Assembly: GCA_001871075.1 (NCBI GenBank)
Contig: MNUP01000068.1
Location: forward strand, 1 to 14,912
Reading direction: 5' to 3'
DNA length: 14,912 bases
Source of the DNA: Candidatus Desantisbacteria bacterium CG1_02_49_89
Lineage (GTDB): Bacteria; Desantisbacteria; UBA1551
The first letter of the stretch is position 1, and every line of letters begins with the position of its first letter. Of the stretch, positions 9,277-14,845 are shown piece by piece. The notes below the pieces were generated by a model. That model was not told the DNA's origin and made no database searches. It saw only the letters and a list, made by a program, of their open reading frames with translations. A program made the position numbers and the translations under genes.

Positions 9277-10116
9277 ATGGGTAAAATAATAAGCTGGTGG
9301 CAGCATATTCCGGAGCACATCAACCCCAATCTTTTCGTGATAGGGCAGTTCCAGTTGAGGTATTACGGGTTGATGTATATAGCCGCGTTCGCGGCGGTCT
9401 ACCTGTTTTCTGTTCACAGGATAGAGAAGGAAAACCAGGGATACACAAAGGAAACGGTGCAGAATTATTTTTTATGGGCTGTGCCGGGGTTGCTGATAGG
9501 CGCAAGGCTCGGTTACGTTTTTCTGTACGATTTCGGCTATTTCGCGGCCCGCCCGCTTGAGATAATCCTGCCCCTGGATCTTTCGCGGGGCATACGCTAT
9601 ACGGGCATTTACGGGATGTCATACCACGGCGGTTTTTTAGGTTTATTAATTTCAACAGTGTTATTCTGCGCCAGAAATAAGCTGGATTTCTGGGGCCTTG
9701 CCGATCTTTTTGCGGTCGCGGCGCCGCTTGGTTTCACGTTCGGAAGGATAGGCAATTTTATAAACGGCGAGCTTTACGGAAGGATAACGTCCGTTCCCTG
9801 GGGCATGTATTTTCCCCTGGCCGGGGATGGAGCCCTGCGCCATCCTTCCCAGCTCTACGCGGCGTTCCTTGAAGGAATCTTGATCTTTCTTATCCTGCGG
9901 GCTGCCGAGAAGCGCAAGCTTCGCAGGGGCTTTCTGCTTTCCTTATATATAATACTCTACGGGGCAGCGAGGTTCGCGGGCGAGTTCGCAAGGGAGCCTG
10001 ATCCCCAGCTGGGGTTCGTGTGGGGAATATTTACCATGGGCCAGGTCCTTTCGCTTGTAATGGCGGCATGCGGCGTGTTTATCATGCTAAGGCCCCGAAA
10101 AAAAGAAAATACTTGA
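9277..10116 (+). CDS. lgt: Phosphatidylglycerol-prolipoprotein diacylglyceryl transferase
   Basis: Lgt moves diacylglycerol from phosphatidylglycerol to the lipobox cysteine of prelipoproteins in the inner membrane. With about seven membrane segments, the 279-residue product shows LRYYGLMYIAAF (27-38), the essential His in MSYHGGFLG (H117), the signature GRIGNFINGELYGR (156-169), RHPSQLYAAFLEG (188-200) and ARFAGEFARE (231-240) with the conserved arginine R232. I take ATG 9277 as the start, although the only Shine-Dalgarno candidate is a weak GTGG in the flanking repeat. An in-frame GTG at 9247 would add ten residues coded entirely by that repeat, and is less likely. The stop codon TGA (10114-10116) overlaps the -35 element of the next promoter. 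Confidence 0.95.
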   Translation: MGKIISWWQHIPEHINPNLFVIGQFQLRYYGLMYIAAFAAVYLFSVHRIEKENQGYTKETVQNYFLWAVPGLLIGARLGYVFLYDFGYFAARPLEIILPLDLSRGIRYTGIYGMSYHGGFLGLLISTVLFCARNKLDFWGLADLFAVAAPLGFTFGRIGNFINGELYGRITSVPWGMYFPLAGDGALRHPSQLYAAFLEGILIFLILRAAEKRKLRRGFLLSLYIILYGAARFAGEFAREPDPQLGFVWGIFTMGQVLSLVMAACGVFIMLRPRKKENT

Positions 10117-10141
10117 CAAATTTTGTCGGATATGATATAAT
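10113..10141 (+). promoter_or_regulatory. Consensus sigma-70 promoter with extended -10, for hrb
   Basis: TTGACA (10113-10118), a 17-base spacer and TATAAT (10136-10141) match the housekeeping consensus at all twelve positions. TG at 10133-10134 adds an extended -10 (TGnTATAAT). The -35 overlaps the lgt stop codon. Transcription should begin near 10148 and run into hrb, leaving a 5' UTR of about 140 bases. Confidence 0.85.
10115..10127. promoter_or_regulatory. Perfect inverted repeat over the -35/spacer (candidate operator)
   Basis: Gacaaa-t-tttgtc is a perfect 6+1+6 palindrome covering the end of the -35 element and part of the spacer. That is where a repressor would block polymerase. No regulator gene is in the window, so the binding protein is unknown; chance is not excluded. 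Confidence 0.45.
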
Positions 10142-10287: not shown

Positions 10288-10986
10288 ATGAATATGGAAA
10301 CATTGCGCAGGATAAGCTACGGCATGTACATTATAAGCTCAAAAAAGGGCGAAAAGCTGAACGGCCAGATAGCGAATACCGTGTTCCAGATAACATCCGA
10401 GCCCCCGACGATAGCCGTGAGCATAAACAAGCAGAACCTGACCCACGACTGCATCAGCGGATCCGGTGTTTTCAGCGTTTCAATACTCGCGAAAGACACG
10501 CCCATGAAATTCATAGGGGCATTCGGTTTCAAGAGCGGCAGGGAAACCGATAAGTTTGCCGGGGTTAAATACCTTACGGGAAAGACGGGCGCTCCCGTTG
10601 TGCTGGACAATGCCGTGGGTTTCCTTGAAGCGGAAGTGTTGTCAAGGTCCGATGCCGGGACCCACACGATCTTTATTGGCAAGGTTATTGAGGCCGAGAT
10701 AATCGGTCCCGCGGAGCCAATGACCTACGCCTACTACCACGAGGTGAAAAAGGGCCTTTCTCCGAAAACCGCGCCGACCTATATCAGGGAGGGAGCTATG
10801 CCTGAAAAAAACGAGGCAAAAGCAAGCAGTTACAAATGCACCGTATGCGGGTATATATACGATCCTGCAAAAGGAGACCCGGACGGGGGCATCAAGCCCG
10901 GAACTCCTTTTGAGCAGATCCCTGATACCTGGGTATGCCCGGTGTGCGGGGCCGACAAATCCGTTTTTGAAAAGGTCAAAGAATAA
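10288..10986 (+). CDS. hrb: High-molecular-weight rubredoxin: flavin reductase-like domain fused to rubredoxin
   Basis: This 232-residue fusion carries electrons from NAD(P)H to the flavodiiron protein. Residues about 1-160 form an FMN-binding split-barrel (flavin reductase/flavoredoxin) domain: [22 protein letters not shown] (13-34), [16 protein letters not shown] (35-50). Residues about 181-232 are a complete rubredoxin with [10 protein letters not shown] (C184, C187) and [14 protein letters not shown] (C217, C220), joined by a Lys/Glu-rich linker. The same architecture is known as Hrb in Moorella thermoacetica, where it serves FprA. Here fprA is the next gene, which strongly supports the role. 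The ATG at 10288 has AAGGG six bases upstream; an ATG two codons later is possible but less well spaced. Expression is predicted from the consensus promoter at 10113. Confidence 0.93.
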
Positions 10987-11108
10987 CCACGGAGGCACGG
11001 AGACACCGAGAAATACATTTTTGCCACTAAAGGCAATGAATTCACCGAGATAATTTTTTAACTTCCAGCATTCAGCATTCAGCAAACAAACTGGATACTG
11101 GATACTGG
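10987..11108. repeat. Compound short repeats between hrb and fprA
   Basis: The stretch begins directly after the hrb stop with a ccacggaggcacggagacac-type repeat (10987-11010), the family seen again at 14310-14433. Later come attcagcattcagc units (11064-11083) and ctggatactggatactgg units (11091-11108). The strong fprA Shine-Dalgarno follows. No gene is visible. Confidence 0.7.
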
Positions 11109-11140: not shown

Positions 11141-12328
11141 ATGGCTGTAAGGGAGATAAGGCCCGGTGTCAGCTGGGTCGGGGTAATAGACTGGGACAGG
11201 AGGCTGTTTGACGAGCTTATACCGCTCCCTGAAGGGACAAGCTACAATTCCTATCTTGTGAAGGGCAGCGAAAAAACCGCTCTTATAGACACCGCGGACC
11301 CCAGCAAGGAAAAGGAATATATCGAAAACCTTAAAAACTCAGGTATAAACAGGATAGACTTTGTTATCTCAAACCACGCGGAACAGGATCATTCAGGCGC
11401 GATCCCCGCGGTGCTTAAAGCTTATCCTGAAGCAAAGGTCGTTACCAACCCCAAATGCAGGGATATGCTCAAAGACCTGCTCCTGATCCCTGATGAAAAA
11501 TTTATAACCGTGAATGACGCAGAGACACTTTCGCTGGGAAATAAGACGCTGGAATTTATAACCGCTGCCTGGGTTCACTGGCCAGAGACGATGTTCACAT
11601 ATCTCCGGGAAGACAAGATCCTTTTCTCCTGCGATTTCCTCGGTTCTCACCTGGCATCATCAGGCCTGTTCTCAACCGATGAGCCGCACGTGTACAGGTC
11701 CGCTAAACGCTATTACGCGGAAATAATGATGCCTTTCAGGGCGAACATAAAAAAACACCTTGAAAAAATAGGCAGCCTGCAGGCAGACGTGATCGCGCCA
11801 AGCCACGGCACAGTCCACAAAAACCCGAAGTTCATACTGGACGCTTACAGGGACTGGGTTTCGGATGAAGTTAAGAACGAGGTTGTGCTGCCCTACGTTT
11901 CAATGCACGGCACTACCCTTGCCATGGTCAGCCATTTCACGGACAGGCTTCTTGAAAAGGGGATCGCGGTGAAGCCGTTCAATCTCACGAAAACCGATAT
12001 CGGCGAGCTTGCGATGGCGCTGGTGGACGCCGCAACGGTTGTCATAGGCTGCCCTACGGTCCTCGCTGGCCCGCATCCCGCGGCTGTTTACGCGGCTTAC
12101 CTGGCAAACGCGTTAAGGCCGAAAACAAAATTTGCTTCCGTGATCGGTTCGTTTAGCTGGGGAGGCAGGATGCTCGAAACGATCACCGGAATGCTCTCAA
12201 ACCTGAAGGTTGAACTGATAGAGCCGGTGATCATAAAAGGATTTCCGCGCGATGAGGATTACAAGGCGCTTGACAGGCTGGTTGATACAATTGCTGAAAA
12301 ACATAAGGAACTTGCTATATTGAAATGA
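11141..12328 (+). CDS. fprA: Flavodiiron protein (A-type flavoprotein, O2/NO reductase)
   Basis: FprA reduces O2 to water, or NO to N2O, at a non-heme diiron centre using FMN, protecting anaerobes in the cytoplasm. The 395-residue protein has a beta-lactamase-like domain (1-245) with a full ligand set: H79, E81, D83 and H84 (HAEQDHSG), H146 (AWVHWPET), D165 (SCDFLGSH) and H226 or nearby H222 (SHGTVHKNP). A flavodoxin domain follows (about 250-395) with the phosphate loop SMHGTT (254-259) and the FMN-contact region GSFSWGG. There is no extra C-terminal rubredoxin, which agrees with a separate Hrb partner upstream. A strong AGGAGGAG precedes the ATG. It is the central gene of an oxygen-defence operon. 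Confidence 0.96.
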   Translation: MAVREIRPGVSWVGVIDWDRRLFDELIPLPEGTSYNSYLVKGSEKTALIDTADPSKEKEYIENLKNSGINRIDFVISNHAEQDHSGAIPAVLKAYPEAKVVTNPKCRDMLKDLLLIPDEKFITVNDAETLSLGNKTLEFITAAWVHWPETMFTYLREDKILFSCDFLGSHLASSGLFSTDEPHVYRSAKRYYAEIMMPFRANIKKHLEKIGSLQADVIAPSHGTVHKNPKFILDAYRDWVSDEVKNEVVLPYVSMHGTTLAMVSHFTDRLLEKGIAVKPFNLTKTDIGELAMALVDAATVVIGCPTVLAGPHPAAVYAAYLANALRPKTKFASVIGSFSWGGRMLETITGMLSNLKVELIEPVIIKGFPRDEDYKALDRLVDTIAEKHKELAILK

Positions 12329-12432: not shown

Positions 12433-12963
12433 ATGGCCGACGAAAAATATCTTGAAGCGCTGAAGATGGCGATCGGCATGGAAAGGAAGGGCCAGAAAGC
12501 GTATAGTGATATGGCCGCAAGGTCCAGGAACCAGCTGGGCATGAAGGTATTTGCCTATCTCGCGAAGGACGAGATCGCCCATATAGAGGCGATAAAGGAA
12601 TTCTCGGTAAAGCTCGCAGGCGGCAGAATCCTGCCTGATGTGGAAAAACTTGTAACGCGAGAGCACCATAAAGGGAACGAAACAATATTCAATAGACCCC
12701 TGGAAGAGCTGAAGGACAGTGCCGGGATCGGAGCAGGAGACCTGAAAGCATATAAAACAGCCATGCAGACAGAGAAAGACGGGTATGAATTTTATAAGGA
12801 GTGCCTTGAAGGCGCGACCGATGAAATGGTAAAGAAATTATTCACGTTCCTGATCGAAGAGGAGAGCTCGCATTACCAGATCCTGCAGGATACCTACCAG
12901 TACCTTGCCCACCCGGCAGACTGGTTCGCCAAGCAGGAGCGGCCGATATTTGAGGGCGGATGA
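12433..12963 (+). CDS. Rubrerythrin-like ferritin-fold diiron protein (no rubredoxin domain)
   Basis: This protein has 176 residues and a predicted four-helix ferritin-like bundle. The diiron ligands appear as two E...ExxH pairs: E17 with E47-x-x-H50, and E114 with E144-x-x-H147. It ends in a family-like DWFAKQERPIFEGG tail. It lacks the CxxC pairs of a rubredoxin domain, so electrons would come from a separate donor, plausibly Hrb's rubredoxin. The likely role is peroxide reduction or iron handling in the cytoplasm, as in rubrerythrins of anaerobes; the exact reaction cannot be told. A strong GGGAGG lies six bases before the ATG. It follows fprA by 104 bases across a large palindrome and probably belongs to the same stress operon. 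Confidence 0.88.
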   Translation: MADEKYLEALKMAIGMERKGQKAYSDMAARSRNQLGMKVFAYLAKDEIAHIEAIKEFSVKLAGGRILPDVEKLVTREHHKGNETIFNRPLEELKDSAGIGAGDLKAYKTAMQTEKDGYEFYKECLEGATDEMVKKLFTFLIEEESSHYQILQDTYQYLAHPADWFAKQERPIFEGG

Positions 12964-12976
12964 CGTGAAAAATATA

Positions 12977-13060
12977 AGTCAAAAGTTAAAAGGCAAAATT
13001 TAAAATGCAAAATTTCCATATTGTTACTCTGACACGTTGATACGCTGATACGTTGACACG
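12977..13060. repeat. Compound short repeats before the NifS-like gene
   Basis: Agtcaaaagttaaaag/gcaaaattt units (12977-13014) resemble the repeat at 9171-9212. They are followed by a roughly ten-base cgttgatacg/ctgatacg/cgttgacacg tandem (13031-13060), which ends just before the GAGG ribosome site. No promoter was recognised. Confidence 0.65.
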
Positions 13061-13076: not shown

Positions 13077-14309
13077 ATGCGTAAAGTTTATTTAGATAAC
13101 CATTCCTGCACGAAAATCGACGAGCGGGTCCTGGCCGAAATGCTGCCCTTCCTGAAAGAGGAATACGGCAACGCCCAGAGCATGCACGCGCTCGGGGCAA
13201 AAGCGAAAGACGCGCTTGAAAAAGCGCGCTCGCAGGCCGCTTCCCTGATCGGCGTGAAGGCCGAGGAGATATATTTTGCGTCCTGCGGCTCAGAGGCGAA
13301 CAACCTTGCGGTAAAAGGGGTTGCGCAGGCTTACGCGCAGAAAGGCAGGCACGTGGTAGTTTCCGGAATAGAGCACTTTTCCGTTCTTTACGCGGCAAGG
13401 CGGCTCAGCCAGCAGGGTTTTGAGGTGACATACATTCCGGTGGACAAATACGGCGCTGTTTCACCGGAAGACGTGAAAAGATCGGTCAGGAAAGACACGG
13501 TCCTTGTTTCCGTGCAGCACGCGAACCCGGAGATAGGGACTGTCCAGCTTGTAGAGGAAATATCAAAGATCGTTCACGGGCAGGGAGCGGTTTTCCACAC
13601 GGATGCCGTGTGCACCGCGGGCATTGTTCCAGTGGACGCGGGCAGGTTCGGGGCAGACCTCCTGACCTTTTCAGGTTCTCAGTTCCACGGGCCCAGGGGA
13701 GCAGCTGCGCTTTATGTTAAAAAAGGCGTGAAGATAGTGCCTCAGATCGACGGGGGGATACAGGAAGGCGGAAGGCGGGCCGGCACTGAGAACATTCCGG
13801 CAATAGCCGGGTTTGGAAAGGCGTGCGAGATCGCCGCAGCTGAAATGGAAGGGAATATTGAAAAAATGATACTGCTCAGAGACAAGCTTATAAATGGGAT
13901 GCGGGAAAAAATAGAATATATATACCTGAACGGGCATCCTGAAAAAAGGCTTCCCAACAACGTGAATTTCTCGGTCGAGTTCATTGAGGGGGAAGGAATG
14001 ATGCTGCTTCTTGACGAGGCAGGGATCTGCGTTTCAAGCGGTTCTGCCTGCGCTTCAAAAGCACTGAAGATGTCCCATATCCTGACCGCGATCTGCGTTG
14101 ACGCCGCGGTTGGCCAGGGCTCGGTTCTTATGACGCTTTCAAAATACAATACCGCAGAAGATGTCGATTACGTGCTGGCCGAGTTCCCGCCCATCGTGAA
14201 AAAGCTGAGGGATATGTCCCCGCTTTACGCCTATTTCAAAAAGACCGGTAACCGGCAGGTTGCGGGTCCGGGTACAGATTACGATCACAAACACAAGGAC
14301 GAAAATTAA
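13077..14309 (+). CDS. NifS/IscS-family protein lacking the PLP lysine
   Basis: The fold is that of a class V aminotransferase/cysteine desulfurase: YLDNHSCTKIDERVLAEM at the start, GSEANNLAVKG (71-81), IEHFSV (98-103), HANPEIGTVQ (148-157), HTDAV (174-178), GGRRAGTENIPAIAGFG (231-247) and the catalytic-loop Cys in SSGSACASKAL (C325). The Schiff-base lysine of the usual SGHK motif is Gln202 (SGSQFHGPRG), and the preceding His is Ser201. The PLP-contact Gln of HxDAxQ is Cys179, and the substrate-binding Arg of the xIRFSLGR block is Leu351 (SVLMTLSKY). Normal PLP-dependent cysteine desulfurase activity is therefore doubtful. A. fulgidus IscS, also without the lysine, is a precedent for a structural or ligand role with IscU. 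ATG 13077 has GAGG five bases upstream; the in-frame TTG at 13053 lies in repeat DNA. iscU follows. Confidence 0.92.
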   Translation: MRKVYLDNHSCTKIDERVLAEMLPFLKEEYGNAQSMHALGAKAKDALEKARSQAASLIGVKAEEIYFASCGSEANNLAVKGVAQAYAQKGRHVVVSGIEHFSVLYAARRLSQQGFEVTYIPVDKYGAVSPEDVKRSVRKDTVLVSVQHANPEIGTVQLVEEISKIVHGQGAVFHTDAVCTAGIVPVDAGRFGADLLTFSGSQFHGPRGAAALYVKKGVKIVPQIDGGIQEGGRRAGTENIPAIAGFGKACEIAAAEMEGNIEKMILLRDKLINGMREKIEYIYLNGHPEKRLPNNVNFSVEFIEGEGMMLLLDEAGICVSSGSACASKALKMSHILTAICVDAAVGQGSVLMTLSKYNTAEDVDYVLAEFPPIVKKLRDMSPLYAYFKKTGNRQVAGPGTDYDHKHKDEN

Positions 14310-14467: not shown

Positions 14468-14845
14468 ATGCCATTTTATTCGGAAAAAGTGCTTGATCAT
14501 TTCAAGCATCCCAGGAACGTGGGGGAAATAGAGAATGCTGACGGGACAGGGGAGGTCGGGAACCCGGTTTGCGGGGACATGATGACTTTCTACGTCAAGA
14601 TCAAGGATAACAAGATCGAGGACGTTAAATTCAAAACCTTCGGCTGCGGCGCTGCGATAGCCGTATCGTCTATGGTGTCTGAGATGGCAAAGGGGAAAAC
14701 GCTTGAAGAAGCGATGAAGCTGACCAACGAGATGGTCGCACAGGAGCTTGGCGGCTTGCCGCCCAACAAGCTTCACTGCTCAAACCTGGGCGCGGACGCC
14801 CTTCACAAGGCCATAGAAAACTATCTCACCAAACAAAATAAATAA
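14468..14845 (+). CDS. iscU: IscU/NifU-N-type iron-sulfur cluster scaffold
   Basis: IscU-type proteins assemble [2Fe-2S] or [4Fe-4S] clusters on three cysteines and pass them to target proteins in the cytoplasm. The 125-residue product has MPFYSEKVLDHFKHPRNVG at the start, the first ligand with its conserved Asp in NPVCGD (C35, D37), FGCGAAIAVSS (C60) and LHCSNLGADAL (H103, C104). All four key positions are present, and the length fits a stand-alone scaffold without NifU's extra ferredoxin-like and Nfu domains. The PPxK motif is seen as LPPNKLHCS, close to the LPPVKxHCS consensus. I chose ATG 14468, with CGGAGG five bases before it; the ATG at 14420 would add 16 unrelated residues from repeat DNA. 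It follows the lysine-less NifS homologue and is presumably its partner. Confidence 0.95.
   Translation: MPFYSEKVLDHFKHPRNVGEIENADGTGEVGNPVCGDMMTFYVKIKDNKIEDVKFKTFGCGAAIAVSSMVSEMAKGKTLEEAMKLTNEMVAQELGGLPPNKLHCSNLGADALHKAIENYLTKQNK

Follow-up and report, generated by a model that had tools for sequence, protein, structure and literature searches.

The window analysed here, a stretch of 14,912 nucleotides from Candidatus Desantisbacteria bacterium CG1_02_49_89, raises the question of what a protein with the fold of the cysteine desulfurases NifS and IscS does beside a NifU scaffold when key residues for desulfuration have been replaced. This question concerns the source of cluster sulfur in anaerobes and the need for cysteine of the ancestral two-gene system. 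The gene belongs to a run encoded entirely on the plus strand, and the first gene of this run is preceded by a promoter match:

10113-10141, plus strand: sigma-70-like promoter match, TTGACA-17-TATAAT (12/12, extended -10), a match to the consensus only
10288-10986, plus strand: flavin reductase-rubredoxin fusion gene, which opens the run (Pfam PF01613, PF00301)
11141-12328, plus strand: flavodiiron protein gene of the FprA type (flavorubredoxin model matches)
12433-12963, plus strand: rubrerythrin-family gene, upstream of nifS (Pfam PF02915, 2.8e-16)
13077-14309, plus strand: gene for a lysine-less NifS/IscS homologue of 410 amino acids (open frame, FeS_nifS match, AlphaFold model)
14468-14845, plus strand: gene for a NifU scaffold with the ligands Cys-Asp-Cys-Cys intact (NCBIfam NifU_clost, 205.9 bits, above the cut-off of 187.9)

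A search for RNA families across the window returned none. A weakly supported dispersed intergenic repeat was found near AACCACAGAGGCACGGAGA at window positions 10985-11003 and at G000:C110:2450-2465 (G000 being the genome of the window); exact matches to its core number 12 genome-wide, versus 8 for a reversed-pattern control.

The positions that set the NifS-like protein apart are encoded as follows:

13611-13613, plus strand: codon TGC for Cys179, at the position of the Gln of HxDAxQ
13677-13679, plus strand: codon TCT for Ser201; the SGHK motif reads SGSQ in the translation
13680-13682, plus strand: codon CAG for Gln202, at the position of the PLP lysine (Lys in 33/33 canonical and 0/67 lysine-less sequences)
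14049-14051, plus strand: codon TGC for Cys325, the loop cysteine within SGSACAS (invariant: 67/67 lysine-less, 33/33 canonical sequences)
14058-14069, plus strand: Lys328 to Lys331, loop-side positive charges of the type found in the lysine-less clade (alignment counts)
14127-14129, plus strand: codon CTT for Leu351, at the position of the substrate-carboxylate Arg (Arg354 in E. coli)

The translation of 13077-14309 bears out the SGSQ motif described in the initial annotation, and translation and alignment do the same for the replacement of the HxDAxQ Gln and the substrate Arg. A fourth change, Pro151, affects the conserved Asn of 'NNE', which is present in 32 of 33 canonical sequences. The protein has full-length similarity to the NCBIfam model FeS_nifS (478.8 bits, E 9e-144) and does not reach the cut-off of the NifS equivalog (530.75 bits). 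That Cys325 is present and the rest of the fold intact, as had also been claimed, agrees with an AlphaFold model computed with 31 relatives as input, which shows the IscS fold with a mean pLDDT of 90.8 and has its best PDB match in Archaeoglobus fulgidus IscS (4hvk) with a TM-score (target) of 0.98. Residues 324-329 around Cys325 are the sole internal segment with a pLDDT below 50, as expected for a mobile cysteine loop. A TTG at 13053 is a possible alternative start upstream of the ATG at 13077, and the latter fits the start typical of the family. With either single change, K206A or Q183E, E. coli IscS is left without desulfurase activity (PMC9978102). As judged from the alignment, the residues for the internal aldimine and for binding of the cysteine carboxylate are gone from the window protein and the loop cysteine is kept; the protein would thus be devoid of desulfurase activity.

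The initial annotation had placed the protein in a non-canonical class. This is right in outline, and the altered residues turn out to be the shared state of a large family rather than the oddity of one protein. Named genomes were scanned with an alignment of lysine-less sequences, and the active sites of the matches were then aligned. This yielded roughly 50 relatives without the lysine, which come from Dehalococcoidia, Anaerolineales, Nitrospirota, Desulfobacterota and other Deltaproteobacteria, Acidobacteriota/Aminicenantes, Planctomycetota, Bacillota, Saganbacteria, Aquificaceae, Verrucomicrobia, Deferribacteraceae, and archaea. In a second, profile-ranked sample of 386 genomes, a lysine-less copy is present in at least 23 genomes from 16 families, a lower bound based on the best 70 or so matches of the ranking. 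The best-scoring relatives of the window protein in other genomes are all lysine-less, and the occurrence of such relatives in many other genomes rules out an organism-specific peculiarity. The nearest one, from genome G086, is 71% identical and also has Gln202 and Leu351, so that the proposed search for relatives sharing the changes had a positive outcome. G001, one of two genomes covered from the phylum of the window, gave weak matches only.

Aligned together, 67 relatives lacking both the Lys and the Arg, which come from bacteria and archaea of more than 10 phyla, show what is retained and what is lost. The loop cysteine Cys325, His100, Asp176, Arg234, and Ser323 are invariant in 67/67 sequences, and the Ser and His that bind the PLP phosphate are eroded. 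The Gln of HxDAxQ is still present in some members. At the lysine position, Gln (38 sequences), Arg (10), Ser (4), Leu (4), His (3), Pro (2), and others are found; the position of the substrate Arg is occupied by Leu (31), Val (27), Ile (6), Thr (2), or Met (1). Since the lysine position varies freely, the site has been abandoned and not re-purposed; the same variability rules out that another residue at position 202 has become catalytic. Near the loop cysteine, position 331 is Lys in 61/67 lysine-less versus Glu in 24/33 canonical sequences, and position 328 is Lys or Arg in 52/67 lysine-less sequences, whereas canonical ones mostly have Gly or Ala. Loss of the Lys and loss of the Arg coincide, with the sole exceptions of L070 (L070:9929-11164), L186 (genome G365), and L192 (genome G098), in which the Lys is kept, the substrate Arg is replaced by Gln or Leu, and a tusA gene lies nearby. 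These sequences are possible intermediates in which the Arg was lost before the Lys.

Trees were built from an alignment stripped of the trait columns. In them, a branch with SH-aLRT support of 97-99 sets apart the lysine-less sequences and the few Arg-less ones that keep the Lys. The exceptions are A. fulgidus IscS and the Bathyarchaeota sequence L088, which group among canonical sequences in free trees. A tree in which all Arg-less sequences, A. fulgidus IscS among them, form a single clade is not rejected (p-AU 0.617).

The kinship in type with A. fulgidus IscS that had been proposed for the window protein is supported by the residues themselves and compatible with this test. A. fulgidus IscS (4eb5, 4eb7, 4hvk; D199K mutant 4r5f) is the studied precedent; it is 49% identical to the window protein and has Asp, Ala, and Leu at the positions of Lys, Gln, and Arg, keeps the loop cysteine, and has IscU as partner. 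The window protein likewise has all three residues replaced, the Cys kept, and an adjacent NifU with intact ligands. Unlike the bacterial family, A. fulgidus IscS is archaeal and falls with or near L088; in this Bathyarchaeota locus, tusA is found 4 bp from the nifS-like gene. Although inactive, the A. fulgidus protein contributes a Cys that ligates the IscU-bound cluster (PMC7585200; PMC9769115). A similar role was suggested for IscS1 (MA0808) of Methanosarcina acetivorans, which has no catalytic lysine and an adjacent IscU (PMC7585200); its likeness to the window protein follows from the published description, and it is itself uncharacterised. As a second precedent, PDB entry 9wfy, labelled 'cysteine desulfurase', is close to the Aquificaceae lysine-less sequence L075 and has Lys replaced by Leu, Arg by Val, and Gln by Pro. 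The Aquificaceae lysine-less sequences L074, L075, and L081 are all near this entry. In 9wfe to 9wep the active-site residues are altered stepwise towards the canonical ones, which shows that such a protein is under study, and in our own reading of the deposited sequences the seven entries 9wfy to 9wep would represent an Aquificaceae lysine-less protein and its back-changed variants. A literature search found no paper on the 9wfy series.

The two-gene core of nifS and nifU without HscA, as found at lysine-less loci, resembles the minimal ISC system (MIS). The MIS has been described with a cysteine desulfurase (PMC12192291), however, and the S component at lysine-less loci cannot be a canonical one. 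No paper on lysine-less members of the MIS was found in a literature search. Where a NifU gene is next to a lysine-less locus, the ligands Cys, Asp, Cys, and Cys are complete in 30/30 cases. Redox genes as in the window recur at some loci: FprA also adjoins lysine-less nifS in L037/L169, and nifS, nifU, flavodiiron protein, and rubrerythrin genes are likewise clustered in family f57.

On the level of whole genomes, the scaffold next to the lysine-less protein is often the only one recognised. The window genome has a single match to PF01592 (NifU_N), which is the window NifU, and no SufB/D was found in it; as this genome is 93.5% complete, a scaffold could possibly have been overlooked. SufB/D is absent from 21/23 genomes with a lysine-less copy and present in 88/145 genomes of a general sample (p 2e-7, overlap removed). 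In 12 genomes including that of the window, the sole NifU_N match lies 36-460 bp from a lysine-less nifS; among them, G261 shows a weak match to SufBD. Completeness amounts to 99-100% for G056, G199, G187, G012, G124, G160, and G299. A canonical NifS is encoded elsewhere in 9/9 genomes checked (G000, G002, G012, G042, G056, G067, G086, G087, and G226) and could supply NifU in trans. In the window genome, this is L031 (G000:C134:10818-11990) with SAHK and SIRF motifs, which adjoins a gene for a LarE-like ATP pyrophosphatase and probably serves thiolation.

Outside the window, lysine-less nifS usually has nifU, tusA, and dsrE/dsrE2 as neighbours. Among loci of the named sample flanked by 1.5 kb or more on each side, tusA is found within 5 kb of 19/35 lysine-less versus 2/35 canonical loci. 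Both canonical cases are explained, as L070 is Arg-less and L043 lies in the operon of its lysine-less copy. HscA is encoded near none of the lysine-less loci of this sample versus 16/35 canonical copies. In the second sample, tusA is found within 1.5 kb of 12/22 lysine-less versus 0/45 canonical loci (p 1e-7, shared ancestry ignored); such tests are weakened because the family falls for the most part to one side of a single branch. The tusA gene lies upstream or downstream of lysine-less nifS at variable distance, a pattern suggesting that linkage was selected for more than once, with shared ancestry uncontrolled. The window contig ends 603 bases past nifS, and the TusA gene of this genome adjoins DsrE2 on contig C110. 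In G086, DsrE2 and TusA are encoded inside the nifS operon. This operon also contains a gene for a haem-NO-binding (HNOB) protein (L168:6870-7385), suggesting NO or redox control. The TusA encoded beside Nitrospirota lysine-less nifS (L045, L059, L063, L069, L079) has CPMH instead of CPxP and represents a distinct subtype. No paper on TusA-NifU operons was found in a literature search.

TusA is not an obligatory partner, because it is absent from the whole genomes G056, G199, G331 (99% complete), and G067, and family f57 is without TusA; a TusA relay therefore cannot be general. The lysine-less operons of G086, G226, and G108 contain DsrE and TusA without an adjacent NifU, so that iron-sulfur cluster assembly may not be the sole role of the family, and the operons of G086 and G226 hint at further sulfur acceptors.

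From these findings it is proposed that the protein is not a desulfurase but a partner of NifU whose loop cysteine works with sulfur that a different donor, often TusA/DsrE, provides, a reading that we consider evenly poised between right and wrong. The NifS fold would serve as a platform for cluster assembly from which cysteine desulfuration has been lost. The window protein most likely binds the neighbouring NifU as IscS binds IscU elsewhere, and the mobile Cys325 would carry or place the sulfur. In most of the family, the donor is probably a TusA/DsrE relay, with sulfur passing from the carrier to the NifS-like protein and on to NifU. Fold and both kinds of partners match the E. coli complexes of IscS with TusA and IscU (3lvj, 3lvl), in which the two partners are bound around the loop cysteine (PMC2854127), and DsrE and TusA hand sulfur groups between cysteines (PMC4175335). 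E. coli IscS is the source of the sulfur, however, which the window protein probably is not, and the proposed flow would be the reverse of that from IscS to TusA in E. coli. More tentatively, the sole NifU and a lysine-less NifS fed with sulfane sulfur by TusA/DsrE may form a cysteine-independent module for cluster assembly in many anaerobic phyla.

A possible but rather unlikely alternative is that, as in A. fulgidus, no sulfur is moved at all. NifU would be held ready for assembly, with Cys325 as the fourth ligand of a cluster built from free sulfide and iron. In structure 4eb5 the Cys of IscS is indeed a cluster ligand, A. fulgidus IscS has matching active-site changes, and the genomes G056, G199, G331, and G067 are accommodated, since no TusA is needed. 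The linkage to TusA/DsrE and the operons without NifU are left unexplained, however. The initial annotation had suggested free sulfide as the feed; the neighbouring genes point more often to the sulfane-sulfur carriers TusA/DsrE. Sulfide is a possible donor where TusA is missing, and for f57 and G067 the sulfide-fed ligand role would be preferred. Use of sulfide has been shown for SMS (PMC12192291), not for IscS-IscU pairs.

It is improbable that the protein is a PLP or PMP enzyme that uses a free cofactor for slow desulfuration or another reaction. The conserved His100 and Asp176 are holders of the pyridine ring, and some PLP stays bound to E. coli IscS K206A (PMC9978102), but no new catalytic residue is conserved at the variable Lys site, the phosphate side is eroded, and the substrate Arg has given way to Leu, Val, or Ile. 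A regulatory pseudo-enzyme that dimerises or competes with canonical NifS and thereby tunes sulfur delivery would have the required paralogue in all nine genomes checked; this is very improbable, as the lysine-less copy and not the canonical one adjoins NifU in the 12 single-NifU genomes and a regulator has no obvious need for an invariant loop cysteine. Several key residues altered together could also indicate a decaying gene or a sequence error, of which the chance is negligible given the long open frame, the Gln202 and Leu351 of G086, the spread over more than 10 phyla, and the invariant loop cysteine; conservation across phyla strongly supports the earlier view of a changed function instead of decay, and a read-level error at 13677-13682 is excluded for practical purposes by the matching state of G086 and 67 relatives.

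The breadth of the family, its link to TusA/DsrE, and the absence of another recognised iron-sulfur scaffold are new here. The lysine-less proteins represent a large and barely studied family in anaerobic microbes, which may draw cluster sulfur from a source other than cysteine, and their database label 'cysteine desulfurase' is probably wrong. Many SUF-less genomes appear to depend on a NifU encoded next to a protein that cannot be an ordinary desulfurase. Owing to the link to TusA, the source of the sulfur can be tested directly on three small soluble proteins. If true, a module fed by TusA/DsrE would invert the textbook direction of sulfur transfer from IscS to TusA.
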